DNA of 64,000 bases from an uncultured Lachnospiraceae bacterium (GTDB lineage Bacteria; Bacillota; Clostridia; Lachnospirales; Lachnospiraceae), in the NCBI GenBank assembly GCA_902788555.1, contig CADAKQ010000003.1, positions 54,623 through 118,622 of the forward strand, given 5' to 3'. The notes beneath the pieces are model-generated. The model saw only the letters and a list, made by a program, of their open reading frames with translations, was not told the origin of the DNA and made no database searches. Positions 495-37,915 of this stretch are shown one piece after another. The position numbers were made by a program, and so were the translations under genes. Positions within the stretch are counted from its first letter, which is position 1. Every line of letters starts with the position of its first letter.

Positions 495-583
495 ACTGAA
501 TTATATATGCAGTTTTTGATATATGAAGGATATATAAAATTTGTAGAGTAATATAACTATTTATCTTTAAACAATATGTAAAT

Positions 584-775
584 GGCTTACGAAGCTTGGA
601 TAAATCCATATGCAGGTACTTTGAACACGTCGGTACTTAGCGAATTGGATGACGATTATAATCAACTTTACGAAGTAAGAAGTTGATTATAATTGGCATC
701 CAAAGAGCTTAGAACCGCTACGTGTGAGAGTAGCGAGAGCGTGCCTGCGATGGATTTAATCCAAGCTCGTAAGCC
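584..775. repeat. Long intergenic hairpin, element A of a five-copy family
   Basis: This imperfect inverted repeat fills most of the gap between pyrG and gltB. The outer arms are 584-616 and 744-775 (GGCTTACGA..GCTTGGAT..AAATCCAT..GCAGG against its complement). The inner core (about 613-747) holds CGGTACTTAGCGA, AGCTTAGAACCG and the asymmetric motif AGTAGCGAGAGCGTG. The core matches elements B and C closely, but the arms do not. A second perfect-looking hairpin (645-703) is nested in the core where B and C have only a short loop. The element could be a structured RNA, a REP/MITE-like element or a composite terminator; its role is unknown. Nothing else was recognised in this 305-bp gap. Confidence 0.85.
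645..703. repeat. Hairpin nested inside element A
   Basis: The arms 645-668 and 680-703 pair almost completely (TTGGATG..ATTATAATCAACTT with its complement) around an 11-nt loop. This hairpin replaces the roughly 11-nt loop (GGTATTGTC-like) found at the same point in elements B and C. It therefore looks like an insertion into the core loop, or a copy-specific extension. Confidence 0.8.
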
Positions 776-799
776 AAAACGGAAAGGTAGGTAAAACAC

Positions 800-3700
800 A
801 TGAACATACAAAAAAACGGATTATATAATCAGGAATTTGAGCATGACAACTGCGGTATAGGCGCGATTGTCAATATAAACGGAGTAAAGTCACACGATGT
901 TGTAAAGGATGCTTTAAGCATAGTAGAAAACCTTGAGCATCGTGCCGGAAAGGACGCAGAGGGAAAAACCGGTGACGGTGTAGGTATCCTTACACAGATA
1001 TCACATAAGTTTTTTAAGAAGATTTGTAAGGAAATAAACATAGAAATCGGAAACGAAAGAGAATATGCGGTAGGTATGTTTTTCTTCCCTCAAAATGAGC
1101 TTAAAAGAAGCCAGGCTAAGAAGATGTTTGAGATAATCGTGGCAAAGGATAAGCTTGATTTTTTAGGATGGAGAGAGGTAGATATTGTACCTGAAGTTTT
1201 AGGAAGCAGGGCAAGAGAGTGTATGCCTTCGATATATCAGGCATTTATTAAAAGACCGGATACACCTTTGACAGACCTTGAATTCGACAGAAAGCTTTAT
1301 GTTATAAGAAGAGAATTTGAACAGAGTAATGACAATACCTATGTTCCGTCACTTTCATGCAGAACCATAGTTTATAAGGGTATGTTTTTAGTAGGACAGC
1401 TTAGGACATTTTTCAAGGATTTACAGGATGAGGATTATGATTCAGCTATAGCCATGGTTCACTCGAGATTTTCAACCAATACCAATCCAAGCTGGGAGAG
1501 GGCTCATCCTAACAGATTTATCGTACATAACGGAGAGATTAATACTATTAAGGGTAATGCTGATAAGATGCTTGCAAGAGAAGAAACCATGCATTCGGAT
1601 CATTTTTCGGCAGATGATATGACCAAGGTTCTTCCGGTTATATCACAGAGTGGTTCCGACTCTGCCATGCTTGACAATACCCTTGAATTCCTTGTTATGA
1701 GTGGTATGGATCTGCCGCTTGCAGCTATGATTATGATACCTGAACCTTGGGCACACAATGATACCCTTACGCAGGAGGAAAGAGATTTTTACCAGTATTA
1801 TGCAACCATGCTTGAGCCTTGGGACGGACCTGCATCAATTCTTTTTTCAGACGGAGATGTGATGGGAGCTATCCTTGACAGGAACGGCCTTAGACCATCA
1901 AGATATTATGTAATGGATGACGGAAGACTTATCCTGTCCTCCGAGGTTGGAGTCCTTTCACTTGATGAACGGCACATTTTAAAGAAGGAAAGACTTCATC
2001 CGGGCAAGATGCTTTTGGTAGATACGATAAATAAGGTCATTCTATCCGATGAGGAGATAAAGGAAAAATATGCTAAAAAGGAGCCTTACGGAGAGTGGCT
2101 TGACAGCAGTCTTTTAGAGCTTCATGACATCAAGATTCCAAATGAAAAGGTTATATCCTACACAAATGAGGAAAGGCAGAGACTTCAAAAGGCATTTGGA
2201 TATTCCTATGAGGATTATCAGGAGGGCATAAGAAATATGGCACTTAACGGTGCCGAGGCAATAGGTGCCATGGGTGTTGATACCCCTATTGCGGTACTTT
2301 CCGAGGAATACCAGCCGCTGTTTTATTATTTCAAACAGCTTTTTGCACAGGTTACCAATCCGCCTATAGATGCGGAGAGAGAAAAGATTGTTACCTCAAC
2401 TACGGTCTATGTTGGTAAAAACGGTAATCTTCTTGAGGAAAAGCCTGAAAATTGTCAGGTATTAAAGATACACAATCCTATACTTACAGACCTTGACCTT
2501 CTTAAGATTGAGAAGATGAATAAGCCGGGCTTTAAGGTTGCCAAGGTTTCAACTCTTTATTACAAGAGCACACCTATGAAGAGAGTAATCGATCATCTTT
2601 TTGTTGAGGTTGATAAAGCATACAAAGAGGGTGCAAATATACTGATTCTCTCTGACAGGGGAGTCGATGAAAATCATGTTGCCATACCTTCACTTCTTGC
2701 AGTAGCAGCAGTTCATAAATATCTCGTTCAGACTAAGAAATGTACAGCTATGTCACTTATTCTTGAGTCAGGCGAGCCAAGACAGGTACATCATTTTGCC
2801 ACCTTACTTGGTTTTGGTGCGTGTGCCGTCAATCCATATCTTGCACATTCTTCCATACAGGAACTTATAGATGAGGGAAGACTTGATAAGGATTATTATG
2901 CGGCGGTAAATGATTATGATGATGCGGTTTTGCACGGCATAGTTAAGATAGCCTCCAAGATGGGTATTTCAACCATCCAATCCTATCAGGGCAGCAAGAT
3001 ATTTGAGGCAATAGGTATATCCAAAGAGGTTATAGACGAGTACTTTACGGGAACTGTCAGCAGAGTCGGAGGAATTACCCTTGATGATATAGCTAAGAGA
3101 GTGGATAAAGAGCACTCTAAAGCCTTTGATCCTCTTGGCTTAAATAGTGACCTTACACTTTCGTCTGTAGGAAGACACAAGATGAGAAGTCAGGGTGAGG
3201 CACACAGATATAATCCACAGACCATACATATGCTTCAGACTGCAACCAGAGAAGGAAATTACGATAAGTTCAAGCAGTACACAAGCATGGTTGACAGTGA
3301 GAAAACAGGCTATTTAAGAAGTCTTATTGATTTTAATTATCCTGAAAGCGGCATACCAATCGAGGAGGTAGAGCCGGAGGATGAGATTGTAAAAAGATTT
3401 AAGACAGGAGCCATGTCCTACGGTTCCATATCCGAGGAGGCACATGAGGCACTTGCGGTTGCCATGAATCACCTTCACGGTAAGTCTAACAGTGGCGAGG
3501 GCGGAGAAAGTGATGAGAGGCTTGCTTCGGCAGGAACCTCACATGACAGAAGCTCTGCGATAAAGCAGGTTGCGAGCGGAAGATTTGGCGTAACCAGCAA
3601 ATATCTTGTAAGTGCAAGAGAAATACAGATTAAGATGGCACAGGGTGCCAAGCCGGGTGAGGGCGGACATCTTCCGGGAAAAAAGGTTTATCCTTGGATA

Positions 3701-5332
3701 GCTAAGACTAGACATTCAACTCCGGGTGTTAGTCTTATATCCCCACCGCCTCATCATGACATTTACTCTATCGAGGATTTGGCACAGCTTATATATGATT
3801 TAAAGAATGCAAATAAAAATGCAAGAATATCTGTTAAGCTTGTTTCGGAAGCCGGTGTAGGAACTGTTGCAGCCGGTGTTGCCAAAGCGGGCGCTCAGGT
3901 AATCCTTGTGTCCGGCTATGACGGAGGAACGGGTGCTGCGCCTCTTAGTTCCATTCACAATGCAGGACTTCCTTGGGAGCTTGGTCTTGCAGAGACACAT
4001 CAGACACTGCTTTTAAACGGACTGCGTAATCAGGTGGTTATCGAGACGGACGGTAAGCTTATGAGCGGAAGAGATGTTGCTATAGCATGTCTGCTTGGAG
4101 CAGAGGAATTCGGATTTGCAACAGCACCGCTTGTAACTCTCGGCTGTGTTATGATGAGGGTTTGTAATCTGGATACCTGTCCTATGGGTGTTGCGACTCA
4201 GAATCCAAAGCTTCGTGAGAGATTTATCGGCAAGGCAGAGTATGTTGAAAACTTTATGAGATTTATAGCAAGAGAGCTTAGAGAATACATGGCTAAGCTT
4301 GGTGTAAGAACCATAGATGAAATGGTCGGAAGAACAGACCTTCTTAAGAAAAAGGATCATTTAAGCGAGAAGGAGGAGAAGATTGATTTAAGCAAGATTA
4401 TAGTTAATCTTTCGGATATAGATCATGAGTTAATGACCTTCCATGCAGATAAGGCATATGACTTTAAGCTTGAGGATACAAAGGATGAAAAGCTCCTGCT
4501 TGATAAGAAGCTTCAGACAGCAATTAAAAAGGGAACGAACATAAAGCTTGAAACCAAGCTTACCAATATTGACAGAACCTTTGGTACGCTTATCGGTGCG
4601 GAGATTACAAGAAATCATCCGGACGGACTTGATGATGATACCATAGTTTTAGATTGTAAGGGCGCAGGCGGTCAGAGCTTCGGTGCATTTATCCCTAAGG
4701 GACTTACGATTAACCTTACCGGTGACAGCAATGATTATTTCGGTAAGGGATTATCAGGTGGAAAGCTTATTGTAAAAGCACCTAAGGAGGCTGCTTACAA
4801 TTCGGAGGAAAATATAATTATCGGAAATGTAGCGCTTTACGGTGCAACCTCGGGAAAGGCATTTATAGCGGGTATGGCAGGTGAGAGATTCTGCGTAAGA
4901 AATTCCGGTGCAACTACCGTAGTTGAGGGTGTCGGTGAGCACGGCTGTGAATATATGACAGGCGGTGTTGCGGTAATCTTAGGTCCTACCGGAAAGAACT
5001 TTGCCGCAGGTATGAGCGGCGGAGTGGCATATGTTTTGGATGAGCATAACAGCCTATATAAGAATTTAAATAAGCAGCTTGTTATAACCGAAAAGCTTGA
5101 CAGTAAGATTGACCGGGAGGAGCTTAAGGCCTTGATAGAGGAACACGTTAAGGCAACGGGTTCAAAGAAAGGTCAGGATATAATAGATAATTTTGATGAT
5201 TACATTCCAAAATTTAAAAAGATTATAGCAGGTGATTACAAACAGATGTTGAGACTTACCGCTAAGTATGAGGAACAGGGACTTAGCAGGGAAAAGGCAC
5301 AGATAGAAGCCTTTTCTGAGTTTATGAATTAG
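800..5332 (+). CDS. gltB: Glutamate synthase, large subunit
   Basis: This is the large (alpha) subunit of glutamate synthase. It hydrolyses glutamine and transfers the ammonia to 2-oxoglutarate, giving glutamate. The 1510-residue length is usual for the family. A short propeptide precedes the Ntn-type nucleophile Cys in HDNCGIGA (about residue 18). The central and FMN-binding synthase domains follow, with SGEGGE and GAKPGEGGHLPG. The [3Fe-4S] cysteines are in CNLDTCPMG. The C-terminal third is the GXGXG beta-helix domain with repeated G-rich turns (TGDSNDYFGKGLSGG, NVALYGATSGKAFIAG). The ATG follows AAGGTAGG. The stop lies 16 nt before gltD, with an AGGAAGGAGG site between, so the two form one operon. 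Large-before-small order fits the clostridial gltA-gltB arrangement. Confidence 0.97.
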   Translation: MNIQKNGLYNQEFEHDNCGIGAIVNINGVKSHDVVKDALSIVENLEHRAGKDAEGKTGDGVGILTQISHKFFKKICKEINIEIGNEREYAVGMFFFPQNELKRSQAKKMFEIIVAKDKLDFLGWREVDIVPEVLGSRARECMPSIYQAFIKRPDTPLTDLEFDRKLYVIRREFEQSNDNTYVPSLSCRTIVYKGMFLVGQLRTFFKDLQDEDYDSAIAMVHSRFSTNTNPSWERAHPNRFIVHNGEINTIKGNADKMLAREETMHSDHFSADDMTKVLPVISQSGSDSAMLDNTLEFLVMSGMDLPLAAMIMIPEPWAHNDTLTQEERDFYQYYATMLEPWDGPASILFSDGDVMGAILDRNGLRPSRYYVMDDGRLILSSEVGVLSLDERHILKKERLHPGKMLLVDTINKVILSDEEIKEKYAKKEPYGEWLDSSLLELHDIKIPNEKVISYTNEERQRLQKAFGYSYEDYQEGIRNMALNGAEAIGAMGVDTPIAVLSEEYQPLFYYFKQLFAQVTNPPIDAEREKIVTSTTVYVGKNGNLLEEKPENCQVLKIHNPILTDLDLLKIEKMNKPGFKVAKVSTLYYKSTPMKRVIDHLFVEVDKAYKEGANILILSDRGVDENHVAIPSLLAVAAVHKYLVQTKKCTAMSLILESGEPRQVHHFATLLGFGACAVNPYLAHSSIQELIDEGRLDKDYYAAVNDYDDAVLHGIVKIASKMGISTIQSYQGSKIFEAIGISKEVIDEYFTGTVSRVGGITLDDIAKRVDKEHSKAFDPLGLNSDLTLSSVGRHKMRSQGEAHRYNPQTIHMLQTATREGNYDKFKQYTSMVDSEKTGYLRSLIDFNYPESGIPIEEVEPEDEIVKRFKTGAMSYGSISEEAHEALAVAMNHLHGKSNSGEGGESDERLASAGTSHDRSSAIKQVASGRFGVTSKYLVSAREIQIKMAQGAKPGEGGHLPGKKVYPWIAKTRHSTPGVSLISPPPHHDIYSIEDLAQLIYDLKNANKNARISVKLVSEAGVGTVAAGVAKAGAQVILVSGYDGGTGAAPLSSIHNAGLPWELGLAETHQTLLLNGLRNQVVIETDGKLMSGRDVAIACLLGAEEFGFATAPLVTLGCVMMRVCNLDTCPMGVATQNPKLRERFIGKAEYVENFMRFIARELREYMAKLGVRTIDEMVGRTDLLKKKDHLSEKEEKIDLSKIIVNLSDIDHELMTFHADKAYDFKLEDTKDEKLLLDKKLQTAIKKGTNIKLETKLTNIDRTFGTLIGAEITRNHPDGLDDDTIVLDCKGAGGQSFGAFIPKGLTINLTGDSNDYFGKGLSGGKLIVKAPKEAAYNSEENIIIGNVALYGATSGKAFIAGMAGERFCVRNSGATTVVEGVGEHGCEYMTGGVAVILGPTGKNFAAGMSGGVAYVLDEHNSLYKNLNKQLVITEKLDSKIDREELKALIEEHVKATGSKKGQDIIDNFDDYIPKFKKIIAGDYKQMLRLTAKYEEQGLSREKAQIEAFSEFMN

Positions 5333-5348
5333 GAAGGAGGATAAGAAT

Positions 5349-6833
5349 ATGGGTAAAGCAACAGGATTTATGGATTTTGAAAGAGTTGACGGACCTGTGG
5401 TTACAGAAAAAGAGCGTATAGCTAATTTTGAAGAATTCCACAAGCTTCTTCCTTCCGAGGAACAGTGTAAGCAGGCAGGGAGATGTATGGATTGCGGCGT
5501 GCCGTTTTGTCAGGCGGGAGTTATGATATCCGGTATGGCATCGGGCTGTCCGCTTCATAACCTCGTTCCGGAGATGAACGATATGATATATCAGGGTAAC
5601 TGGGAGGAGGCTTATAAAAGGCTTGCAAAGACTCACAGCTTTCCTGAATTTACATCAAGGGTATGTCCTGCACTTTGTGAGGCGGCTTGTACCTGCGGAC
5701 TTCATACCAAGCCTGTATCGACCAAGGAAAATGAACGTTCGGTCATAGAATATGCTTATGAAAACGGATTGGTGGAAGAAGCCGCTCCTTCGGTGAGAAC
5801 CGGAAAGACAGTTGCCATAGTCGGAAGCGGACCTTCGGGACTTGCGGCAGCACAGCTTCTTAATAAGAGAGGACATAAAGTCACTGTATATGAAAGAAGT
5901 GACAGGGTAGGCGGATTACTCAGGTACGGCATACCAAATATGAAGCTTGATAAAAAGATTATAGACAGAAGAATAAAATTAATGGAAGAGGCAGGTATTG
6001 AATTTATATGCAATGCCAATGTAGGCGTTGATGTAAAGCCTTCTGAACTTGAGAAAAAGTATGACAGGGTTATCCTTGCCTGCGGTGCTTCAAATCCACG
6101 TAATATAAATGCACCGGGCAGAGATGCAGAGGGGATATATTTTGCGGTTGATTTCCTAAAGCAGGTGACCAAGAGTCTGCTTGACAGTGATTTCAAGAAA
6201 TTCCCGTATGAGCTTGCCAAGGATAAAAATGTCATAGTAATAGGCGGTGGAGATACCGGTAATGACTGTGTCGGAACATCTATACGACTTGGCGCAAAGA
6301 GTGTTATCCAGCTAGAAATGATGCCTAAAGCACCGGATACACGTACCGAAAGTAATCCGTGGCCTGAATGGCCGAGAGTCTGCAAGACGGACTATGGTCA
6401 GGAGGAGGCTATATATAAATTTGGTCATGATCCGAGACTTTACTGCACAACCGTTTCGGAATTTATAAAAAATAATAAGGGTAAGCTTAAGGCTGTTAAG
6501 ACGGTTTCACTTAAGACGGTTTTTGATAAAAAGGCAGGAAGATACAATATGGTTCCTGTGGAAGGAAGTGAGAAGGAGCTTCCTTGCGAGCTTTTATTAA
6601 TTGCAGCAGGATTTTTAGGAAGTGAACTTTACGTGACCGAGGGTTTTGGTGTAGAATGTGATGGTAGAACCAATGTAAAAACTCTTGCCGGCTCATACAA
6701 GACAAGCAAAGATAAGATTTATACTGCAGGTGATATGCACAGAGGACAGTCTCTTGTTGTATGGGCAATCGCAGAAGGAAGAGCCGCTGCACGAGAGGTC
6801 GATGAATCCCTCATGGGTTACACGAATCTTTGA
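5349..6833 (+). CDS. gltD: Glutamate synthase, small subunit (NADPH-type)
   Basis: This is the beta subunit of glutamate synthase. It oxidises NAD(P)H on FAD and passes electrons through Fe-S clusters to GltB. At 494 residues it has the usual length. N-terminal cysteine-rich motifs for two [4Fe-4S] clusters are visible: CMDCGVPFCQ, then SGCPLHN, then CPALCEAACTCGL. The FAD Rossmann motif is VAIVGSGPSGLAAAQLL (about residue 150) and the NADPH Rossmann motif is VIVIGGGDTGNDCVG. The C-terminal YTAGDMHRGQSLVVWAIAEG motif closes the FAD site. Translation starts just after AGGAAGGAGG behind gltB. The last codons and stop lie within the left arm of hairpin element B. The identity is secure. Confidence 0.97.
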   Translation: MGKATGFMDFERVDGPVVTEKERIANFEEFHKLLPSEEQCKQAGRCMDCGVPFCQAGVMISGMASGCPLHNLVPEMNDMIYQGNWEEAYKRLAKTHSFPEFTSRVCPALCEAACTCGLHTKPVSTKENERSVIEYAYENGLVEEAAPSVRTGKTVAIVGSGPSGLAAAQLLNKRGHKVTVYERSDRVGGLLRYGIPNMKLDKKIIDRRIKLMEEAGIEFICNANVGVDVKPSELEKKYDRVILACGASNPRNINAPGRDAEGIYFAVDFLKQVTKSLLDSDFKKFPYELAKDKNVIVIGGGDTGNDCVGTSIRLGAKSVIQLEMMPKAPDTRTESNPWPEWPRVCKTDYGQEEAIYKFGHDPRLYCTTVSEFIKNNKGKLKAVKTVSLKTVFDKKAGRYNMVPVEGSEKELPCELLLIAAGFLGSELYVTEGFGVECDGRTNVKTLAGSYKTSKDKIYTAGDMHRGQSLVVWAIAEGRAAAREVDESLMGYTNL

Positions 6834-7035
6834 TACTATTTGAAAAGCCAATAAACTTTATAGTTGATTATATATGACTATTTCATAAGCAAACCGTTTT
6901 TTTACGTCGGTACTTAACGAGGTATTGTCGAGCTTAGTACCGTTACGTAAAAAACCGAGCGAGAGCATGTTTGCGATGAAATAAGTCATATGGAATCAAC
7001 AAAAGAATCTTGTGCAAATAGTATTAAAGATTCGT
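6822..7035. repeat. Long intergenic hairpin, element B
   Basis: This long inverted repeat lies between gltD and the glnA-like gene. Outermost arms 6822-6842 and 7015-7035 pair (ACGAATCTTTGATACTATTTG against its near-complement), and the left arm spans the gltD stop codon. Inner arms start at GTTGATTATATATGACT (6863) and end at 7000. The core (about 6888-6974) contains ACGTCGGTACTTAACGAGG, CGAGCTTAGTACCG and CGAGCGAGAGCATG, closely matching elements A and C. Relative to A, the core stem pair ACACG/CGTGT has become TTACG/CGTAA, a compensated change. It may act on glnA-like expression or end gltBD transcripts; this is inference. Confidence 0.85.
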
Positions 7036-7066
7036 AAGATAATGTTTGATATGGAAAGGAGATATT

Positions 7067-8287
7067 ATGCGTACTAAACAGGAAATTATGGAAATGATAG
7101 AGGAAGAGGATATTGAGTTTATCAGGCTTCAGTTTACTGATCCGCTCGGCAATTTAAAAAATGTTGCGGTGACGGCTCGCAAGCTTGAAAAGGTTTTGGA
7201 TAATCAGTATGCCTTTGAAAATGAAAAGATTTTTAAGATATATGAGGATGAGCTTTATCTTAAGCCTGATCTTGATACCTTTGCGATTCTTCCGTGGAGA
7301 CCGCAGCAAAGCGGTGTCGCAAGACTCATATGTGATGTATGCGACGGTGATGGTAACGAGATTGATTTCAGTCCGAGAACCATTTTAAAGAATACTATCA
7401 AAAAGGCAAAGGATATGGGCTATGATTTTTATATTAATCCTGAGTGTGAATTTTTCCTTTTCCATACAGATGAGAACGGACAGCCTACAACCGTTTCACA
7501 TGAACATGCAGGACTTATGGATGTTGGACCTGTTGACCTTGGTGAAAATGCAAGAAGAAACATGGTTCTTATGCTTGAGGAAATGGGCTTTAACATAAAC
7601 TCCTCATATCATGAAGGTGCTTCTGCACAGCATGAGATAGATTTTGAGGAGGGGACGCCTCTTAGCATGGCGGATGATTTGATTACATTTAAGTCCTCGG
7701 TACGTTCGGTTGCAAAGACCTTTGGACTTCATGCCACATTTATGCCTAAACCAAGGCAGAATCAGGCCGGTTCCGGTATGCATCTTAATATATCTGTATA
7801 TAAGGATGACAGAAATATTCTTATGGATTATGTAGGTGGCGATAAAGATAATCCGGGTGCATGGTTTGCAGGCGGAGTTATGAAATATGCAAAGGAAATG
7901 TGCGCCATAACTAATCCGATTGTTAATTCATATAAGAGAGATTTTAATAATAAACCTAAGCTTCACAGCAGAAAGGGAGAGGATGTGAAGCTTGAGTTTT
8001 CATTTGCTGACCCGTCAGCAAATCCTTATCTTGCATTTGCAATGTTTATAAATGCAGGTCTTAAAGGTATTGATGAAAAGCTTGTACCTGATGAAAGTCT
8101 TTCAAAGGAAGACTTACCTTCAAATCTGCTTGAGGCAGTTAAGCTGTTTAAGGAAAGCAGTGTTGCCAAGGATGCTCTGGGAGCAGACTTTGCAGAAAAG
8201 TATGCCGTATCCAAGGAAAATGAGTGGGATGAATATATGAGTCAGGTTTCAGATTGGGAGCTTCAGAAGTATCTGTACAGAATTTAA
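7067..8287 (+). CDS. Glutamine synthetase type I-like protein with degenerate active site
   Basis: Clearly homologous to type I glutamine synthetase (GlnA), but only 406 residues against about 440. The ATG at 7067 is chosen because GGAAAGGAG sits just upstream; a TTG 21 nt earlier is less likely. Conserved parts are RLQFTDPLGNLKNV, the metal-ligand strand NPECEFFLF (about 125-132), HEGASAQHEIDF (about 182-193), SGMHLN (about 236-241) and NSYKR. Two catalytic regions have changed. The DGSS loop reads ENEKIF (about 51-56). The stretch between NSYKR and DPSANPYL is about 16 residues shorter, so the GYE flap, NRS and IRIP motifs are gone and EVR has become EFS. It is followed 24 nt later by the ANTAR gene, so the two are probably co-transcribed. 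I infer a sensor or otherwise repurposed protein; activity cannot be ruled out. Confidence 0.85.
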   Translation: MRTKQEIMEMIEEEDIEFIRLQFTDPLGNLKNVAVTARKLEKVLDNQYAFENEKIFKIYEDELYLKPDLDTFAILPWRPQQSGVARLICDVCDGDGNEIDFSPRTILKNTIKKAKDMGYDFYINPECEFFLFHTDENGQPTTVSHEHAGLMDVGPVDLGENARRNMVLMLEEMGFNINSSYHEGASAQHEIDFEEGTPLSMADDLITFKSSVRSVAKTFGLHATFMPKPRQNQAGSGMHLNISVYKDDRNILMDYVGGDKDNPGAWFAGGVMKYAKEMCAITNPIVNSYKRDFNNKPKLHSRKGEDVKLEFSFADPSANPYLAFAMFINAGLKGIDEKLVPDESLSKEDLPSNLLEAVKLFKESSVAKDALGADFAEKYAVSKENEWDEYMSQVSDWELQKYLYRI

Positions 8288-8311
8288 GGATTGCATGAGG
8301 AGTTAAAATAA

Positions 8312-8866
8312 ATGGGCAGTATTATTATTGCATTGCCTAAACTGAATGATTCGAAGAAAATAAGTGACTTGCTTGGAAGATATGGTTTGGAAACCTTTGC
8401 TATATGCAGTGCTGCTGCAACGGTTTTATCAAATGTAAATCAGCTCGAATCGGGGGTTGTTATATGCGGACATACATTTCCGGATATGCATTCCTCTGAG
8501 CTTTTATCATATCTTCCCGATAACTTTGCTCTTGTACTTATGACATCAAGGGAAAATCTTTCGAGGTGCCCCGACGGTGTCGTGACACTTGCCATGCCCT
8601 GTAAACCGAGTGATATAGTAAATACGGTTAATATGCTTTTAGAACAGCAAAACAGGAAGATTAAAAAGAAAATCGAAGAGCAAAAGGGCAGGAAAAGAGG
8701 AGAGCATGGTAAAAACTATGTCAACAATGCAAAGCTCCTTTTGATGGAGCGTAACAATATGACGGAGCCGGAGGCGTATCATTATATACAAAAATGCAGT
8801 ATGGACTCCGGAAATACAATGGTTGAAGCCGCCCAGATGATTCTTTACATGGCGGTGGCTGATTAA
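8312..8866 (+). CDS. ANTAR-domain response regulator, NitR-like antiterminator
   Basis: This 184-residue protein has an N-terminal receiver-like domain and a C-terminal ANTAR RNA-binding domain, a family that stops transcription termination by binding paired hairpins in nascent RNA. The ANTAR part is clear from about residue 135 to the end: AKLLLMERNNMTEPEAYHYI, then QKCSMDSGNTMVEAAQMIL. The receiver part is degenerate. Where the phosphorylated Asp should lie the sequence is VVICGHTFPDM, although the LMTS and CKP positions remain, so phosphorylation is doubtful. A basic linker (KIKKKIEEQKGRKRGEHGK) joins the domains. It lies 24 nt behind the glnA-like gene, as nitR does near glnA and gltAB in Clostridium saccharobutylicum, so a role in nitrogen-controlled antitermination is likely. 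Its stop codon lies inside the left arm of hairpin element C. Confidence 0.9.
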   Translation: MGSIIIALPKLNDSKKISDLLGRYGLETFAICSAAATVLSNVNQLESGVVICGHTFPDMHSSELLSYLPDNFALVLMTSRENLSRCPDGVVTLAMPCKPSDIVNTVNMLLEQQNRKIKKKIEEQKGRKRGEHGKNYVNNAKLLLMERNNMTEPEAYHYIQKCSMDSGNTMVEAAQMILYMAVAD

Positions 8867-9054
8867 TGATGAGCTTGGAGAGAGTTGTTTGTATCAAATT
8901 ATATCTATAACAGGCACGCTCTCGCTACTCTCACACGCAGCGGTACTAAGCTCGAAAATACCTCGCTAAGTACCGGCGTGTTCAAAGTACCTGTTTATAG
9001 ATATATTTGATACAAACAACTCGCCAAGGTTATGAATTAATCAGCCATAGCATG
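8848..9054. repeat. Long intergenic hairpin, element C (inverted orientation)
   Basis: Two arms of about 65 nt (8848-8914 and 8990-9054) pair almost throughout, including GAGTTGTTTGTATCAAA and GGCTGATTAAT. The left arm includes the last six codons and stop of the ANTAR gene, so the right arm is an inverted copy of that gene end. The core (8911-8993), read on the minus strand, gives CGCCGGTACTTAGCGAGG, CGAGCTTAGTACCGCTGCG and GAGAGTAGCGAGAGCGTG, nearly identical to element A and opposite in direction. It occupies nearly all of the gap before carA. Confidence 0.88.
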
Positions 9055-9084
9055 ATAAATTAATGAAATAGAAGGTGAAAAAAG

Positions 9085-10173
9085 ATGGAACGAAAAGAGT
9101 TTGACAGAAAGTTAATTCTTGAAGATGGAAGCGAGTATTACGGATATGCTTTTGGTGATACCTCTGATAAGGTGACGGAGATTGTTTTTAATACCTCCAT
9201 GGTTGGATATCAGGAAATTATTTCCGATCCGTCCTATACATATCAGTCGGTTGTTATGACCTATCCGCTTATCGGTAATTACGGTATTGCCAACGATGAT
9301 TATGAGACTGATATACCAACGATTGGTGGCCTTATAGTAAGAGAGTATAATGATTTTCCGTCTAATTTCAGAAGTAAGAGAACTCTTTCGGAGATTATGG
9401 AAAAGTACCATATAACAGGCATTTCCGGTATTGATACAAGGAAGCTTACGCGTTCCATAAGAGACCTTGGTTCAAGGAGAGTGCTTATAACAGGATTAGA
9501 TACCTCCGTGGAGGAGGGACTTAAAATAATTGAGGAGAACCCTTACGAGCATGATGCGGTTAAGTTGGTTAGCTGTAAGAGTAAGTGGCGTTCAAATGTT
9601 TTTGATGCAAGATATCATATTGTTGCAATCGACTGCGGAATCAAGCAAAACATCATTCGTTCCTTAAATAACAGAAAATGTAACGTAACCATAGTTCCGT
9701 GGAACACACCTGCAGAGGATATAATAGAATTAAATCCTGACGGAGTATTTATTTCAAACGGACCGGGAGATCCGACGGATATGTCGGAGGTTACTGAAAA
9801 TATAAAAAAGCTTAGAGGTAAATATCCGATTTTCGGTATATGTCTCGGGCATCAGATTATAAGTCTTTCGTACGGAGCAAAAACCTACAAGCTCAAGTTC
9901 GGACACAGAGGCGGCAATCATCCGGTTAAGAATCTTATCACCGGAAAGATTGAGATTACCTCACAAAATCATTCCTTTGCGGTAGATGCGGAAAGCCTTA
10001 AGAACACTGAACTTGAGGCGACACATATAAATATACTTGATGATACCATAGAGGGTGCAAGATGCGTAAAGGACAAGGTCTTTTCGGTGCAGTATCATCC
10101 GGAAAGTGCGCCGGGGCCGCAGGACAGCTCATATCTCTTTGATGAGTTTATAAAGCTTATTGAAGAAAGCTGA
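9085..10173 (+). CDS. carA: Carbamoyl-phosphate synthase, small (glutaminase) subunit
   Basis: The small subunit of carbamoyl-phosphate synthase hydrolyses glutamine and feeds ammonia to CarB for pyrimidine and arginine synthesis. At 362 residues it has the normal length. The N-terminal CPSase_sm_chain domain starts LILEDGSEYYGYAFG, with SMVGYQEIISDPSYTYQ and GISGIDTRKLTR. The C-terminal class I amidotransferase domain has SNGPGDPTD, the nucleophile in GICLGHQ and the His-Glu pair in QYHPESAPGP. The ATG follows GAAGGTG. carB begins about 80 nt downstream, so the two are probably one transcript. Element C lies directly upstream and may influence expression. The identity is secure. Confidence 0.97.
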   Translation: MERKEFDRKLILEDGSEYYGYAFGDTSDKVTEIVFNTSMVGYQEIISDPSYTYQSVVMTYPLIGNYGIANDDYETDIPTIGGLIVREYNDFPSNFRSKRTLSEIMEKYHITGISGIDTRKLTRSIRDLGSRRVLITGLDTSVEEGLKIIEENPYEHDAVKLVSCKSKWRSNVFDARYHIVAIDCGIKQNIIRSLNNRKCNVTIVPWNTPAEDIIELNPDGVFISNGPGDPTDMSEVTENIKKLRGKYPIFGICLGHQIISLSYGAKTYKLKFGHRGGNHPVKNLITGKIEITSQNHSFAVDAESLKNTELEATHINILDDTIEGARCVKDKVFSVQYHPESAPGPQDSSYLFDEFIKLIEES

Positions 10174-18940: not shown

Positions 18941-19537
18941 ATGGTTGCAAAGAAGATTTTGACAGGATTAATATGTGGGATAATGCTATTATCCGGAAGT
19001 GGAATAGGAAATATTGTTTCAAATGCTGAAGAGGTTGAAAAAACAGATGTTTTAATAAAACAGAAGACGTCATATGGGGCAGATGGCTCAAAAATACTGA
19101 GTTGGCAATATGAATATGATGCTAACGGGAATTTAAAAAAAGAAAAGTTTGAGTCGAGCAATACAGAGGCATTTCCTGATTACATTATTGCATACGAATA
19201 TGATAATGCAAATAACAATACTAAATACTTCAGGTATAATGGAGATGGTGTATTGGAATCGTATTACGTATATACATATAATTCAGAAAATAAAAATACA
19301 AAGTGGACGTGTTATGATAAAGATGGCATAAGTGAAACATCGCGTGAGTATGAATATGATGCCGAAGGACATTTAGCTAAGGAAACGTTTTTTAGAAATG
19401 ATTCTGTTGTTGATTATATAATTTATGAATATGATAATAATAATTTAGCTAAAGAAACGGAATATTCATCTGATAATAAATTAATGTATTATTTTGAGTA
19501 TGAGTATGATTCCGATGGAAATATGACAAAAAAATAG
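18941..19537 (+). CDS. Secreted YD-repeat protein, N-terminal part of a frameshifted gene
   Basis: The ATG follows GAAAGGAG. The product begins with a signal peptide (KKILTGLICGIMLLSGSGIG) and then about seven YD-like repeats of the pattern YEYDxxGNLxKE. The frame stops at TAG 19535-19537, right after a run of seven A residues (19528-19534). With eight A residues the frame would continue through 19538-20403 and give a 487-residue protein built like the intact paralogue at 25485-27368. I therefore read 18941-20403 as one gene broken by a one-base change. Slippage at the tract could restore it. Confidence 0.75.
   Translation: MVAKKILTGLICGIMLLSGSGIGNIVSNAEEVEKTDVLIKQKTSYGADGSKILSWQYEYDANGNLKKEKFESSNTEAFPDYIIAYEYDNANNNTKYFRYNGDGVLESYYVYTYNSENKNTKWTCYDKDGISETSREYEYDAEGHLAKETFFRNDSVVDYIIYEYDNNNLAKETEYSSDNKLMYYFEYEYDSDGNMTKK
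19528..19534 (+). other. A7 tract at frameshift site
   Basis: Seven A residues lie directly before the TAG that ends the N-terminal frame. Adding one A puts the upstream YD repeats in frame with the downstream YD repeats and the wall-binding-like domain. Three explanations fit: phase variation, transcriptional slippage, or a sequencing error in a homopolymer. Confidence 0.7.
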
Positions 19538-19659
19538 AATATTCATCATCGGGAGATATATATTATACTGATATCTGGGAATATGATGGTAGAGGAAATA
19601 TAATAAAGCATATAAAGGATTTATCCTCCGAACAGTATGAATATGATGATAATGATAAC

Positions 19660-20403
19660 ATGATAAAACATTTTTATTATGACAAAGATGGAAAATTAAT
19701 AACATATTTTACATATGAATATGAATTTGATGATGATGGAAATATAACAAAACAAATAACATATGAAAATGATGATGTTAATAGTTATATGATATATGAA
19801 TATTATTCTTCAGAAGAAAATAATATAAATAATGAATTGCCGATAGGCGACAAATACTCAACCTACGAGTCCTATGACTTCTATAGGGACGAAGCAGGAG
19901 ACACCCGCTGCTATGATTCAACTGGAGCACCTGTTATAAACGAATTCAAGTGTGACGGAACATACACCTACTACTTCCAGTTAGACGGAACCGCTATGAA
20001 GGACAGGCTTTCCTATCATCCTGACGGTGAGCATGTCATATACTTTGATGCAGAGGGGCATGAAGTGTTTAGTGATTTTGCTAATGTTAAAAAGACCATT
20101 GCAGGCGAGGATGTAAATGATTTCTGCTTTTTCAATGTATTCGGATATATGTACGTAGATGTGCTTACATACGATAAGACCGGAACATATCTTTACTATG
20201 CAAATCCATACGGTGTAATGGAGATGGGCAAGTGGTTCCAGTTTTCAGATTCGGTTGAGTGGGCAGATGGAACACCTGCTGAAGGCATCGCAGGCGGATA
20301 CGGCTATGCAAACGAGAACGGAACACTTATGACAAACACCCAGACAGTTGACTGGGAGGGCAGAAGCTGTTACTTACAGGGAAATGGTGTAGCAGCATAC
20401 TAA
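19660..20403 (+). CDS. C-terminal part of frameshifted YD-repeat surface protein
   Basis: The frame continues the gene at 18941 after the A7 tract; the open frame actually reaches back to about 19535. The ATG at 19660 is internal to a repeat and has no ribosome site, so independent translation is unlikely. It contains further YD-like repeats and then the roughly 180-residue domain shared by five proteins here: YTYYFQLDGTAMKDRL, HPDGEHVIYFDAEGHEVFSD, CFFNVFGYMYVDVLTYD and LYYANPYGVMEMGKWFQF. It ends CYLQGNGVAAY. The Tyr/Gly pattern resembles choline- or wall-binding repeats. The domain-coding part is visibly richer in G+C than the YD repeats. Confidence 0.7.
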   Translation: MIKHFYYDKDGKLITYFTYEYEFDDDGNITKQITYENDDVNSYMIYEYYSSEENNINNELPIGDKYSTYESYDFYRDEAGDTRCYDSTGAPVINEFKCDGTYTYYFQLDGTAMKDRLSYHPDGEHVIYFDAEGHEVFSDFANVKKTIAGEDVNDFCFFNVFGYMYVDVLTYDKTGTYLYYANPYGVMEMGKWFQFSDSVEWADGTPAEGIAGGYGYANENGTLMTNTQTVDWEGRSCYLQGNGVAAY

Positions 20404-20420
20404 AAATACATTATGTTAAA

Positions 20421-20455
20421 AACGTGAGGCATATTTATATGTGCTTCACGTTTTT
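20421..20455 (+). terminator. Rho-independent terminator
   Basis: AACGTGAGGCA and GTGCTTCACGTT pair around a short loop, and the stem runs into TTTTT. It ends the transcript of the frameshifted surface gene. It also shows that the frame extension of the next ORF to 20441 is not a real start. Confidence 0.8.
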
Positions 20456-20515
20456 CTTGATTTAATTGATAATAATAAATATAATATAAATAAAAAATCA
20501 AAAATGGAGAAAAAT

Positions 20516-22732
20516 ATGGGGATTATTAAGAATACGGTAAAAAAAATAACAGCTTTAAGTTTGGCATTTGTTATGTCCTTCAGTGTGCTGACAGCTATAA
20601 AATCACCGCTTAAAGTAGATGCGGCATTTGAAGCCAAACATTATGACCTTACTCAAAACGGTGGTTATTGGGATGGTGTTAATTATGAACTGAATGGAGA
20701 AATAATTAAAGACGCCTTCTTCACTGACGGCAAATATACTTATTTCCTGCAGGCAGACGGTACACCTATGAAGGACAGGCTTACATATCATCCTGATGGT
20801 GTTCATGTAATATATTTTGATAAGTATGGACATGAGGTGTTCAGTAATTTCAAGAATGTCAAGCAGAGTATCGCAGGTGATGCGGTTAATGATTTATGCT
20901 TCTTTGATGTATATGGATATATGTACACTAACTTTCTGACATACGATCAGGCAGGTGTTAATCTATATTATGCGAATCCTTATGGAGTAATGGAATGCAA
21001 TGGCTGGTTTCAGTTCGCCGGTGATGCGGGACCTGTGGCAGAGGCTTTCGGCATAACCGAAGGTACATGGGGATATGCATATCCGAACGGAATTGTTGAT
21101 CCTGCAAGTATAGGAGATGATAGTGTCTATAGTTCATTTATTCCTAATCAGGAAATGATGTTTGCATATAATCTTGATGATGGCATTGATGATAGTTCTC
21201 TGTATTTTAGGTATAAAGATAGTGTGGATGCCACCGAATATACTTATGAAATAATACCATTATTAGAACCTTTTAATAGATATTTTTATATTAAAACAAA
21301 TAATCCTGATCCTAATTCGTTTGCGTTTAGGGATAAAACATCAGTATATGATGTTCCGGGTGCTAGTGGAGGATATAAAAATATTGATGAAGAAGAATGG
21401 ACATATTATGAAAATGATTTATCAATCACACCTTTAACAAATAATGAATTTTTTGACGTATTATATGAAGATAGTTCAATTGGTAGAGTTAAAGGTGGTT
21501 ATATAGCAGAATCACAGTTTACTGATGGTGGAGAAGTATATTTACAAAAAAGAATAATACAAAGAGATTATAATGGTAATGTGTATTACATTACAAAAGA
21601 TACAGATATTACAATAAATATTCCAAATGTTGTTGATTCGGTTGATTATCTTATTGAAAATTATTCTTTAGAAAATGATTTTTGGGGAAGCTTAGATTCA
21701 ATACAGGATTACCTTGATTCGGCTGCTATTTATCCTAAGTCTTTTGTGGATATTGAAAAGCCAAATGAACAATTACCATATCCATATTTTACATGTTCTT
21801 CGTACCCTGAGCTTTCATTAAATGATATTTATAATATGTATGAGCGAGCAGATGGGTCATGTATTGCATATAGATTATATCCGTTTATATTAGATTCTCT
21901 AGGTTTCCCGGGTATGATGGCATCTGTTGCAAAAAGATTAGATGATGATTGTGAATATGAAAGAGGGGAAGATCATTATGACGTAAATATTACACATAAT
22001 GGTGAAATGAGAACATACGGAGGTTGTGGAGGTGGAGGTTTTTCACCAATGTATAAAGACTTTGTTGAAGTATTATTTTTATTTGATAATTCGAAAGATG
22101 ATTATGCTTTTAATGTTGAAATCGAATCATTAAGCAGCAAGTATCGTGAATATAATTCTTTATCTTTGAAACGTCTTAGTGAATATAAAAAGATGTTATA
22201 TGGAGATGAAGCTAAAAATACAATTTTTCCGGGAGCTTGGCTGAGAGTCAGAACAGAGGGATGGAGTTCAAATCCATGTTATACATATGTTTCTTATGTT
22301 TATGGAGATAATTATAGATCTGAAATTGAGGATACATGGGTAGATGGAAGATATATAAGCGTATATAATCAGTATTATCCGGGGGTAAAATATGGTGATA
22401 TATTATTTGGCGTAGATACGGGAAAGTCTGATATTTTGATAAGGAATATGGAGTATACTGATTATAACGGTGAAAAAGTTAAAAGAGACGTCCTTTTTGA
22501 ATATCGGGAGGATACTGATGATTGGAAAGCTGCGTTTTCATATGTACGTGATGCATCATACGTTACATCAATATTGGATGATATGCCTGACGAAATGGTG
22601 CTTACTCACGAAGAAATAGAAGAGATGAATAAAAATCCGGATACAAGTTTGGATAGGAATACGGACATTGTTCCACAATCGGGATTTATATATGATGGAA
22701 CTGTAAAACCGGGTACACCTTTTACTAATTAG
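20516..22732 (+). CDS. Secreted protein with N-terminal wall-binding-like domain and unknown C-terminal region
   Basis: A 738-residue secreted protein. The ATG at 20516 is chosen because GGAG lies 6 nt upstream; the longer frame begins inside the preceding terminator. The signal peptide is at the start (ITALSLAFVMSFSVLTAI, cleavage near VDAAF). The shared domain follows at about residues 45-190 (YTYFLQADGTPMKDRLTYHP, CFFDVYGYMYTNFLTYD, YYANPYGVMECNGWFQF) with the alternative tail FAGDAGPVAEAFGITEGTWG. The remaining 520 or so residues match nothing I recognise: many aromatic residues, a Cys-containing TYGGCGGGGF segment, no repeats and no membrane anchor. It belongs to the tandem array from 18.9 to 27.4 kb. 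Confidence 0.75.
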   Translation: MGIIKNTVKKITALSLAFVMSFSVLTAIKSPLKVDAAFEAKHYDLTQNGGYWDGVNYELNGEIIKDAFFTDGKYTYFLQADGTPMKDRLTYHPDGVHVIYFDKYGHEVFSNFKNVKQSIAGDAVNDLCFFDVYGYMYTNFLTYDQAGVNLYYANPYGVMECNGWFQFAGDAGPVAEAFGITEGTWGYAYPNGIVDPASIGDDSVYSSFIPNQEMMFAYNLDDGIDDSSLYFRYKDSVDATEYTYEIIPLLEPFNRYFYIKTNNPDPNSFAFRDKTSVYDVPGASGGYKNIDEEEWTYYENDLSITPLTNNEFFDVLYEDSSIGRVKGGYIAESQFTDGGEVYLQKRIIQRDYNGNVYYITKDTDITINIPNVVDSVDYLIENYSLENDFWGSLDSIQDYLDSAAIYPKSFVDIEKPNEQLPYPYFTCSSYPELSLNDIYNMYERADGSCIAYRLYPFILDSLGFPGMMASVAKRLDDDCEYERGEDHYDVNITHNGEMRTYGGCGGGGFSPMYKDFVEVLFLFDNSKDDYAFNVEIESLSSKYREYNSLSLKRLSEYKKMLYGDEAKNTIFPGAWLRVRTEGWSSNPCYTYVSYVYGDNYRSEIEDTWVDGRYISVYNQYYPGVKYGDILFGVDTGKSDILIRNMEYTDYNGEKVKRDVLFEYREDTDDWKAAFSYVRDASYVTSILDDMPDEMVLTHEEIEEMNKNPDTSLDRNTDIVPQSGFIYDGTVKPGTPFTN

Positions 22733-22808
22733 CAAAAATCGATAAAACGATGTTAGTTGTGTGCTCTTACATATATTTTGTAAAGATTAGAATTACGGAG
22801 GGTATAAG

Positions 22809-25337
22809 ATGAAAAACAAAAAAAAAATAGTAAATTACATATGTCTAATTTTGCTTTTTATAGGTACTTTCAATAATTATATTACTTCAAGTGCAACAGA
22901 TATTGAAAAAACAGATATAGTTAAAGGAAATAATGAAATAATTGAGATTAACGAGGAAAATTTCCCTGATGAAGAATTTAGAGAATATCTTGTTAATCAT
23001 TATTATTGGGCTCAAAATGGATACTTTAATTCAAATAATGTCGAAAGCTTGGAGATTATGAATGATAACAATATTCATTCACTTAAAGGAATAGAATTTT
23101 TTGATCAATTAAAAACTCTTTCAGTTCATAATTGTAGTAATGTAAATGAAATTGATGTAACAAATAATTTTAATCTTGAAAGTTTGGCAATATCTGACAC
23201 AGAAATATCAGCAATAGATTTAAAAAATAATAAGTCATTAAAAATGATATTACTTAAACAAAATAACATTTCTGATATAGATATAAGCAAAAATGTTTAT
23301 TTGGAAGAGATTAATATATATGATGAAAAAATTGAAAAAATCGATTTAAAAAATAATAATAATTTAAAGAGTTTAAGTGTCGGAAATATTAAAATTACTG
23401 ATTTGGATATAAGCCAAAATAAACAATTAATAAATCTGTTTTTAGATAATTTAGATATAAAAAGTATAAATACAAGCAACAATACACTGATGCAAACATT
23501 ATATTTAAATAATATTCATATAGCAAATTTGGATATATCAAATAATAAATCATTACAAAGCTTAGATATAAGCGGTACAGATATATCAAGTTTAGATACA
23601 TCTAATAATAAAGAATTATGGGCTTTGAATGTGAGCAATACAAACATTTCTGAATTGAATTTAAAAAATAATTCTAAATTATATGGTATACAGATTAATG
23701 GGAGCAATATTAAATATTTGGATTTAAGTTTTATAAGAAACCAAATTGATTTAACAATGGATTCAAGGCAAAAGGTTGATTTTCCTAATGATATTGAGTA
23801 TTTAGAAATTGTAGTCGGTGACAAGAACGGAGTGATAGATTTTAATGATTTTTCAAATTACAAACATGAATTTCTAAAAAACATGAATGCAGAAGTCGAA
23901 GGCTATAAATTTAGTTATAATTCAGATACAGACAAGTTGGAATACAAGATAAATCCTAATGGAACATACCAATTATTGATTGAAAACGACTATTATTCCT
24001 TAGATAGCTATGAAAATGAAATCTTTTTATTTGAAAAAGGAATTAAAATGCCTATATTCATAATAAGATATGATCCGGAATTAAAGTCTTTTACCGATAA
24101 AGAAAAAACAGATAATAAAGAAGGTGAGAAAGAATCTGAAAAGATAGGAACATTATTTTCGGCATATGAAGGATTTGATTTTTATATTGATGAAAACGGT
24201 AATGTGAGATGCTATGACAAAAAAGGAAATATAGTTATAAATGAATTTAAATGTGACGGAATATATACATATTATTTTCAGCTTGACGGAACAGCTATGA
24301 AGGACAGGCTTACATATCACCCTGATGGAGTACATATAATCTATTTTGACGAAAATGGACATGAAGTTTTCAGCAACTTTGCACATGTAAAAAAGAGTAT
24401 AGCAGGTGACGCTGTTGATGATCTTTGTTTCTTTGATGTATATGGATATATGTATGTAAACTTCCTTACATTTAATCAGGATGGTACTGCACTTTATTAC
24501 GCTAATCCTTATGGAGTCATGGAATGCAATGGATGGTTTCGGTTTGCAGGAAATGCAGGATATGTTGCAGAGGCATATGGTATTACAGAAGGAACATGGG
24601 GATATGCATATAAGGATGGAAGAGTTGATCCTTCAAGCTTTGGAGATGAATCGATAAAAATGCAGTTCATTCCGATTTCAGATGCAGAAATATCAAGAGA
24701 ACCGTTGACTCAAAATCAGGTATTTGATGCAATTGTTAATTATTGTGTTGAGCAAAATCCTTCATTGGTAGATGCGTTAGCTAACGGCTATAATTTGGGC
24801 TGGTGGATAAGTGACTTGAATGGGGACGAATATATGGTTACATTCAGATCATATACCGGAGCTTATGAATATTTCCATGCAAATATATATTCAGGTAATG
24901 TATATAGCTATGAGTATGTTAGTGGAATAATTGATGAACCGACACTTACGGATACGAATTTTAATGCTTATGATTATTTGTATGAAAATACGGTTTATCC
25001 TATGGGTGAATGGTGCATTGCAGGGGATGACCCATATGAGTATTTAGCAGGCATTTGGGGCTCTTGTTCAATGTGGGAATATAATAATTTATATTATGTT
25101 AAATTTGTTGATGGCAAAGCAGTTTATATGAATTATAACAATGGCACATATGAGGAATACTCAGAAATTAAAATAATAAATATCGAAAGACTTGAAGATA
25201 ATTCGGGATTTAGAATTTATCTCGAAAATGGAACAATGTATGAAAATTCAGGAAAGGATTATCTCGATTGTTATTTTGATAATAGTGGTGAAATGATTTA
25301 TTCCGGTGCGGATAGTATTTATCGAATAGCGAACTAA
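22809..25337 (+). CDS. Secreted leucine-rich-repeat protein with internal wall-binding-like domain
   Basis: An 842-residue secreted protein. The signal peptide is KIVNYICLILLFIGTFNNYI. About ten leucine-rich repeats of roughly 23 residues follow (about 85-330), with the pattern LxSLDISxTxISxLDTSNNK. A linker rich in Lys and Glu leads to the shared domain (about 455-610: YTYYFQLDGTAMKDRLTYHP, CFFDVYGYMYVNFLTF, YYANPYGVMECNGWFRF) with the EGTWGYAY-type tail. A further 220 residues of unknown fold end the protein. The ATG follows GGAGGGTATAAG. The LRRs suggest binding to a host, glycan or protein surface; this is inference. A decayed piece of the other tail type lies just after the stop. Confidence 0.78.
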   Translation: MKNKKKIVNYICLILLFIGTFNNYITSSATDIEKTDIVKGNNEIIEINEENFPDEEFREYLVNHYYWAQNGYFNSNNVESLEIMNDNNIHSLKGIEFFDQLKTLSVHNCSNVNEIDVTNNFNLESLAISDTEISAIDLKNNKSLKMILLKQNNISDIDISKNVYLEEINIYDEKIEKIDLKNNNNLKSLSVGNIKITDLDISQNKQLINLFLDNLDIKSINTSNNTLMQTLYLNNIHIANLDISNNKSLQSLDISGTDISSLDTSNNKELWALNVSNTNISELNLKNNSKLYGIQINGSNIKYLDLSFIRNQIDLTMDSRQKVDFPNDIEYLEIVVGDKNGVIDFNDFSNYKHEFLKNMNAEVEGYKFSYNSDTDKLEYKINPNGTYQLLIENDYYSLDSYENEIFLFEKGIKMPIFIIRYDPELKSFTDKEKTDNKEGEKESEKIGTLFSAYEGFDFYIDENGNVRCYDKKGNIVINEFKCDGIYTYYFQLDGTAMKDRLTYHPDGVHIIYFDENGHEVFSNFAHVKKSIAGDAVDDLCFFDVYGYMYVNFLTFNQDGTALYYANPYGVMECNGWFRFAGNAGYVAEAYGITEGTWGYAYKDGRVDPSSFGDESIKMQFIPISDAEISREPLTQNQVFDAIVNYCVEQNPSLVDALANGYNLGWWISDLNGDEYMVTFRSYTGAYEYFHANIYSGNVYSYEYVSGIIDEPTLTDTNFNAYDYLYENTVYPMGEWCIAGDDPYEYLAGIWGSCSMWEYNNLYYVKFVDGKAVYMNYNNGTYEEYSEIKIINIERLEDNSGFRIYLENGTMYENSGKDYLDCYFDNSGEMIYSGADSIYRIAN

Positions 25338-25350
25338 ATATGATGATATG

Positions 25351-25395: not shown

Positions 25396-25484
25396 ATAAA
25401 ATAATATATGAGAATATTCTTTAAATCTGTATTTAAAGCTTGTGCTCATATACGTAATTATAAAAACAATTGGAGGAAGACATT

Positions 25485-37912: not shown

Positions 37913-37915
37913 ATT

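Follow-up and report, generated by a model that had tools for sequence, protein, structure and literature searches.

A large, lineage-restricted family of structured intergenic hairpins in the Lachnospiraceae

The gltB–carA locus and the anatomy of the hairpins

The DNA analysed here is a stretch of 64,000 nt (the window) of contig CADAKQ010000003.1 from an uncultured Lachnospiraceae bacterium, assembly GCA_902788555.1 (the source genome, G000; other G numbers denote compared genomes and L numbers the loci examined). The beginning of the window carries gltB (start at 800), an open reading frame (ORF) at 5349–6833 that we take to be gltD, glnA (start at 7067), a gene at 8312–8866 and carA (start at 9085). 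Long hairpins, copies A (584–775), B (6822–7035) and C (8848–9054), stand before gltB, glnA and carA, respectively. The family of structured intergenic hairpins to which they belong is real, large and restricted to one lineage, and it has no match in Rfam. A preliminary description made from the letters alone had proposed that the three share a core and that copy C is inverted, and we confirmed both, as well as the coordinates. Each copy folds as RNA better than its dinucleotide shuffles (z of -12.8, -10.0 and -11.6 for A, B and C, with none of 200 shuffles as good in any case), and AGCGAGAGC occurs three times in the window against 0.28 expected, a count reached by 1 of 100 shuffles.

A covariance model, R1, was made from 59 copies of the genus with short tips only, C included and A and B not. 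R1 matches A at 600–758 (plus strand, 97.8 bits), B at 6877–6984 (plus, 77.3 bits) and C at 8900–9006 (minus, 124.2 bits), and additionally matches the complement of copy C, weakly. The features are as follows.

584–613, plus strand: copy A, 5' arm, paired with 747–775
614–746, plus strand: copy A, core with long tip hairpin (tip about 641–707) and GNRA side hairpin at 732–740; within the R1 match 600–758
747–775, plus strand: copy A, 3' arm, with 24 nt between its end and the gltB start (800)
6822–6842, plus strand: copy B, outermost 5' arm, paired with 7015–7035; overlaps the end of ORF 5349–6833
6863–6890, plus strand: copy B, inner 5' arm (GTTG...), from the fold and congener comparison
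6891–6972, plus strand: copy B, core of the second type (CCGAGC-GNRA-GC) with GNRA side hairpin at 6958–6966; within the R1 match 6877–6984
6973–7000, plus strand: copy B, inner 3' arm (...CAAC), from the fold and congener comparison
7015–7035, plus strand: copy B, outermost 3' arm, upstream of the glnA start (7067)
8848–8880, minus strand: copy C, weak outer pairing, overlapping the end of gene 8312–8866
8884–8911, minus strand: copy C, 3' arm (the core strand being minus), from the fold and arm parse
8912–8992, minus strand: copy C, core with short tip and GNRA side hairpin at 8918–8926; within the minus-strand R1 match 8900–9006
8993–9022, minus strand: copy C, 5' arm, whose letters differ from those of G022 and G004 at the same site
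9023–9054, minus strand: copy C, weak outer pairing, upstream of the carA start (9085)

Two features had escaped the preliminary description, namely the extra tip hairpin of copy A, about 60 nt long, and the extension of the outermost pairing of copies B and C into the end of the upstream gene. The outermost arm of copy B is retained in G024, which is without the inner element. Copy C lies directly behind the gene at 8312–8866, whose 184-aa product, encoded between glnA and carA, looks by reading only like an ANTAR-type antiterminator.

A whole element spans about 135–200 nt, with a structured core of about 81 nt on covarying arms. From the outside in, arms of about 25–30 bp lead through an AA/G internal loop to AGGUAC paired with GUGCCU, then to a junction with a side hairpin of two base pairs closed by a GNRA loop, and to a tandem G·A; beyond these lie a covarying stem (ACACG/CGUGU and variants), GGUACU, a U·U, AGC, a further tandem G·A, GG and the tip loop. 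At the junction RNAalifold favours pairing UAC with GUA over GUG, and each register fits part of the variation. In some copies, such as A, the tip is lengthened by a hairpin of 50–60 nt. Among the 59 genus copies, the U·U is present in 59, the two positions of the tip tandem G·A in 59 and 58, those of the second tandem G·A in 58 and 52, the U32·G106 pair in 59, the bulged UA in 59 and the GNRA loop in 57. Outside the genus (73 copies), where the GNRA shape was demanded by the search pattern, the side loop reads GAGA in 39 copies, GAAA in 16, GCAA in 8, GGAA in 5, GGGA in 3 and GCGA in 2. The conserved U·U, tandem G·A, U·G and GNRA side loop look like RNA.

Several variants were seen beside this common form. 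The second core type, as in copy B, was also recognised on inspection by eye in numerous copies from other genera. A further 24 pattern matches outside the genus, L042, L128, L129, L142 and L144 among them, have no GNRA side hairpin. In some of these, such as L042, L128, L129 and L144, the apical hairpin stands in tandem with a differing one, and L042 additionally contains tRNA and rRNA matches. Small hairpins with TTTACTTCGTAAA or TAACGAAGTTA lie in or beside the Butyrivibrio elements at L046, L052 and L095 and may represent another, still smaller repeat. Pairs of elements in opposite orientation, roughly 200–600 bp apart, occur in several genomes (L095:440–860 and places in G432, G044 and G203). 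At L034, L036, L136, L139 and L145 the outermost ends carry, by eye, a TAGGTAATTGYGAAACTC-like inverted sequence that could be the terminal repeat of a mobile form.

Extent of the family

An 86-base query taken from copy C found 43 matching pieces in the 2.7 Mb source genome, which merge by position into 34 elements, the pieces outnumbering the elements because a long tip splits some of them. In a set of 99 related genomes, G000 itself counted, 35 contain a match to this query. Of 250 genomes sampled from the same taxonomic family, 100 have an R1 match (99 of 249 genera); this is a lower bound, since strict filters were applied and no more than 15 candidates were scored in each genome. In the class as a whole, R1 matches 11 of 391 genomes, and all 11 are within that taxonomic family. 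A pattern scan of named genomes returned at least 116 stretches; among the matches listed are Butyrivibrio, Hungatella hathewayi and H. effluvii, [Clostridium] symbiosum, C. fessum, Faecalicatena contorta, Acetatifactor and many Lachnospiraceae assemblies, along with a few under other labels (e.g. 'Bacteroides sp.').

The survey bears out the suggestion of a dispersed element resembling repetitive extragenic palindromic sequences (REP) or miniature inverted-repeat transposable elements (MITEs). That no named family has this core agrees with Rfam, which gave no match in the window at gathering score and no relevant match in E-value scans of window positions 560–9100 and ten loci. Permissive Rfam matches were set aside as rRNA, tRNA, S10 leader or chance, all off the elements, as was a sub-threshold microRNA match on copy A. 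Searches of open-licence full texts turned up no description of this kind of repeat in Lachnospiraceae. Weinberg et al. 2010 (PMC2864571) describe intergenic motifs that are conserved, resemble RNA and were identified by comparing genomes. Those candidates are motifs of the same kind, and a comparison that reached those within Rfam gave no match.

Covariation and inheritance of core, arms and tip

Several lines of evidence indicate that the hairpin is maintained as a structure. The preliminary description had noted that the stem pair ACACG/CGTGT of A and C is TTACG/CGTAA in B and had argued from this compensated change for selection on structure. The change is real and is one of many, as the corresponding pairs vary on both sides across the 59 genus copies. 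In these, 88.5% of cells are paired and two-sided changes number 510 against 192 in shuffles, with 40 of 54 pairs showing a two-sided change against 28; none of 500 shuffles was as high by any measure, and sliding the partner strand cuts pairing to 29–44%. Outside the genus (74 distinct rows), 91.2% of cells are paired and two-sided changes number 629 against a mean of 204 and a maximum of 242 in 200 shuffles, in an alignment that was fitted to the model and hence leans to it, with apical letters partly demanded by the scan pattern. This set omits the 24 matches without the GNRA side hairpin, 10 matches near a contig end and ten loci, seven of which (L121, L076 and L087 included) share much DNA with congeners and three of which were left out on weak sharing; with the omitted loci put back, two-sided changes number 710 against 224. 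That stem letters change while pairing stays suggests a working RNA structure.

The core and arms are mostly inherited together at orthologous sites, with the arms drifting by compensated change. In a comparison that took in part of the congener copies, 22 of 28 parsed G000 sites have an element at the same position in one or more of six congeners. Rather than a core confined to one genome and unsupported by covariation, with unrelated sequence at its sites in relatives, we find the core in many relatives, strong covariation and shared sites. Compensated arm changes include T-A to C-G (L005/L281), G-C to A-T (L024/L236) and C-G to G-C (L008/L285). From 35 orthologous comparisons between G000 and congeners (congener–congener comparisons and L009/L286 left out), we pooled those in which 12 or more pairs were common to both copies and no more than half of these had changed, and counted 45 two-sided Watson-Crick changes, 19 one-sided changes involving G·U and 6 involving A·C, 10 changes between Watson-Crick pairs and other mismatches and 4 others, figures to which sites contribute up to four times and whose pair positions come from an alignment favouring G·U.

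The dominance of two-sided changes at orthologous sites, some of which have no one-sided change at all, is also what would be expected if pairing were kept by mutation, with template switching in the palindrome copying one arm onto the other; between L009 and L263, for example, 7 of 23 pairs are changed in elements whose cores are 100% identical. However, G·U mispairs exceed A·C mispairs in the genus, and copying leaves the invariant U·U, G·A and GNRA features unexplained. We consider this explanation very unlikely.

The arms had been described as unrelated between copies. This holds for their outer part, positions 21–28 from the core being 29% identical among the 28 parsed G000 copies (28.5% in shuffles, 69 of 500 being as high), but not for the inner part, where positions 5–12 are 63% identical (34% shuffled); positions 13–20 are 38% identical (33% shuffled). 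Individual pairs vary: identity between L001 and L002 is 98.8% in the core and 75% over arm positions 5–28, and between L001 and the two L003 copies it is 96–98% in the core and 25–54% in the arm. The profile of arm ends (69 unique elements) shows a weak GGTTG-like end.

It had also been proposed that the element inserts into hairpin loops. What stood of this proposal concerns the apical tip hairpin, which comes, goes and is replaced while the arms stay. At site C, the tip is short in G000 and long in G008 on identical 26-nt arms, and the long tip of G008 is 90% identical both to the site-A tip of G000 and to the tip at the leuC site of G008. At the leuC site, the G000 tip is of another type, on arms 88–100% identical to those of G008, and short and long tips alternate also at sites orthologous to L010, L024, L026 and L249. 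In contrast, insertion of a whole core into unrelated, pre-existing hairpins is not supported, because core and arms are mostly inherited together. These exchanges could be read as those of a modular mobile RNA structure with site-bound arms, a conserved core and an exchangeable tip hairpin that moves between the mRNA hairpins of one genome, so that hairpins would nest in hairpins and dispersed mRNAs would carry an interchangeable recognition head; we regard this as distinctly doubtful.

Whole elements have also been inverted in place in three site groups (L006/L240 versus L276, L016 versus L283, and L261 versus L284) and, by eye, at site B in G014. Absences take several forms. Site A is without the element in G008 and G016 and reduced to a stub in G014; site C is without it in four congeners and partly deleted in G022 and G004, where the remaining arm is unlike that of G000. 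The panD site of G024 has lost only the core, with both arms kept, and those of G008 and G004 have a minimal spacer; at the amt site the right end alone is left in G008 and G024. At the panC site there is an apparent outer stub in G016 and a right part in G024, and G008, G014 and G004 are clean. The ilvD site is without the element in G014, G024 and G004 and has a small ORF instead in G008 and G023; in the G008 spacer (L306:122–550), which separates ilvD from the gene upstream, this ORF encodes 142 aa and includes a YMNQQ repeat, and L307 (G023) is similar. Inspected by eye, the absences at A, C, panD, amt, panC and ilvD showed no clean insertion with target duplication, and several of them are decayed copies. 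We read this as an old set of sites undergoing deletion, although clean absences could be ancestral too. An origin of the arms by inverted target duplication at insertion, suggested by the reach of copies B and C into gene ends, was rejected, since copies at orthologous sites have both arms and core in common and the arms drift by compensated change.

Gene setting, rival readings and a proposed role

In the genus, a gene starts within 90 nt downstream on the core strand of 58 of 80 copies and on the other strand of 17, two copies counting in both; 82 elements were parsed, L251 and L262 being dropped as misparsed, and copies at orthologous sites are not independent. For G000 alone the figures are 22 and 5 of 28 with one in both, or 21 against 4 counted exclusively (p = 0.0009). 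By NCBIfam, the downstream genes of G000 include leuB, leuC, ilvD, purC, panC, panD, trpD, ribD, folD, argJ, carA, amt and sufB, and below its cut-offs ornithine carbamoyltransferase, glutamine synthetase and a glutamate synthase fragment. Anabolic proteins (amino acid, nucleotide or cofactor) make up 14 of 29 downstream proteins scanned but 4 of 37 other genes of the window (dapL, purL, nicotinate phosphoribosyltransferase and argH; Fisher p = 0.0008), the control being window genes from 13.6 kb on with blanks scanned at 1e-20. Within that region, a row of genes at 18941–27365, without an NCBIfam match at 1e-20 among the proteins scanned, includes two that resemble each other in their N-terminal signal-like regions (ICGxMxxSGxGIG), possibly as members of a paralogous secreted family, and two more long inverted repeats (37816–37919 and 54637–54722) have no R1 match.

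Outside the genus (73 copies), 14 copies lie between codirectional genes running with the core and 18 between codirectional genes running against it, 14 are convergent, 6 divergent, 19 at a contig edge and 2 inside an ORF call. Copies that stand just before gene starts, a conserved RNA-like core and the 14 of 29 anabolic neighbours would suit a ligand- or protein-controlled leader (a riboswitch or attenuator) of anabolic operons. However, there are several copies per gene cluster and not one per operon (three in the 9 kb gltB–carA region and four in 4.4 kb before leuC, purC, leuB and ilvD), both orientations occur, with convergent sites outside the genus, and Rfam gave no match; we think a leader of this kind very unlikely. 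A stand-alone non-coding RNA, as the preliminary description had offered, gained no promoter support: -10-like boxes are not in clear excess before the arm, and a promoter at the foot of the 5' arm, to which seemingly frequent TA-rich boxes had pointed on inspection by eye, was rejected, a 5-of-6 match occurring in 30% of 69 arms against 17–33% in ten shuffles. The elements are probably transcribed as part of mRNA.

Alternatively, the family could consist of selfish, MITE- or REP-like DNA elements that need the hairpin as single-stranded DNA for transposition, with incidental effects on genes. The many dispersed copies with near-identical cores, the balanced orientation outside the genus with few divergent sites (6 of 52) and the absence of elements at given sites in some congeners are in keeping with this. 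The distribution of a candidate mobiliser is not: the Y1 transposase (PF01797; RAYT/IS200) matched in 6 of 26 genomes, namely 3 of 16 element-rich ones, G000 not among them, and 3 of 10 element-poor ones, in a survey in which some genomes are incomplete and the 'poor' G053 and G058 do have a few copies. RAYT/IS200 mobilisation is thus not supported, Y1 being the one mobiliser searched for. Viruses or plasmids as carriers of the family were rejected too: viral contigs gave 0 pattern matches, plasmids no match and phages one 37-nt partial match. Further against a selfish element, outer arm letters are at chance similarity among the 28 G000 copies, so the conserved terminal inverted repeats of MITEs of the CREE or RUP type were not found, no clean insertion with target duplication was seen at the inspected sites, several absences retain stubs, and in the genus orientation is biased and sites are shared. 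On balance a selfish element seems to us rather unlikely. REP sequences and REPINs are dispersed extragenic palindromes associated with a RAYT transposase; the Lachnospiraceae elements are much longer, and Y1 was not found in 13 of 16 element-rich genomes, G000 included. Because the transposase was not found in G000 or in most element-rich genomes searched, nor conserved terminal repeats among the G000 copies, we do not file the family under REP-RAYT or MITEs.

The nearest systems in behaviour are CREE/NEMIS and ERIC, in which long mRNA hairpins arise from dispersed repeats. According to two reports (PMC2649163, PMC2229807), CREE/NEMIS of Neisseria is a small repeat whose conserved core is flanked by inverted repeats, present in more than 120 copies with most locations common to two strains, which RNase III can bind and cleave; the terminal inverted repeat of CREE is 24 bp (PMC2229807). 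The Lachnospiraceae family differs in belonging to another phylum and in outer arm letters that vary between copies. The ERIC and YPAL repeats of enterobacteria and Yersinia are likewise among the closest known systems, and ERIC of Yersinia is said to regulate neighbouring genes via RNA hairpins (PMC2267715). We know of no GNRA side hairpin or exchangeable tip in ERIC or YPAL. With CREE/NEMIS and ERIC the family shares the form of a long intergenic stem-loop, as seen in its folds, covariation and setting, with 2 of 73 copies outside the genus inside an ORF call.

Mispairs bear on whether the structure is selected in transcripts. Single arm mispairs in the genus (70 unique elements) comprise 38 G·U and 10 A·C, divided by orientation into 30:6 with the gene, 4:3 opposite and 4:1 undecided. 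Outside the genus, the ratio is 20:14 where genes run with the core and 5:16 where they run against it, or 36:19 taken together on the mRNA strand (p = 0.03); with the omitted loci put back, the two ratios are 30:16 and 7:16. This lean to the mRNA strand moderately supports selection in transcripts.

With modest confidence, we favour reading the elements as cis-acting mRNA hairpins, REP/CREE-like as a family and built on a structured core, that lie in intercistronic spacers and 5' untranslated regions. A number of observations weigh against it. The genus copies opposed to their gene (4:3) are too few to tell, the core strand outside the genus has no G·U excess (57:73), the convergent copies there (6:15, p = 0.08) are not explained, and strand-biased mutation could also give a G·U excess. 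Recurring sites and an alignment favouring G·U bear on the orthologous change count as well. Clustered copies and a one-region control weaken the anabolic excess, and balanced orientation outside the genus, where 14 of 52 copies with two clear neighbours lie between convergent genes, means that a strict leader role fails family-wide. Moreover, many sites are lost in congeners, and decayed copies are under-sampled in a set found by similarity.

If the elements are cis-acting mRNA hairpins, the folded RNA would be recognised through the U·U, tandem G·A and GNRA side loop of the core together with the long double-stranded stem. By analogy with what is reported for CREE/NEMIS and ERIC, the hairpin may tune the processing or stability of the next gene's mRNA, the agent being probably an enzyme of the RNase III type or else an RNA-binding protein dedicated to the family. 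The family would have spread via some mobiliser and would now be mainly inherited and lost by deletion, with tips passing between copies, presumably by recombination.

About two fifths of the sampled genera in this main gut and rumen family carry elements unmatched in the RNA library of Rfam. Should these act on mRNA, they would form a shared post-transcriptional layer over genes of nitrogen, amino-acid, nucleotide and vitamin metabolism, with a conserved head that could serve to capture the binding partner. The family also offers a natural setting in which to ask whether long palindromes retain their pairing by selection or by template-copying mutation.

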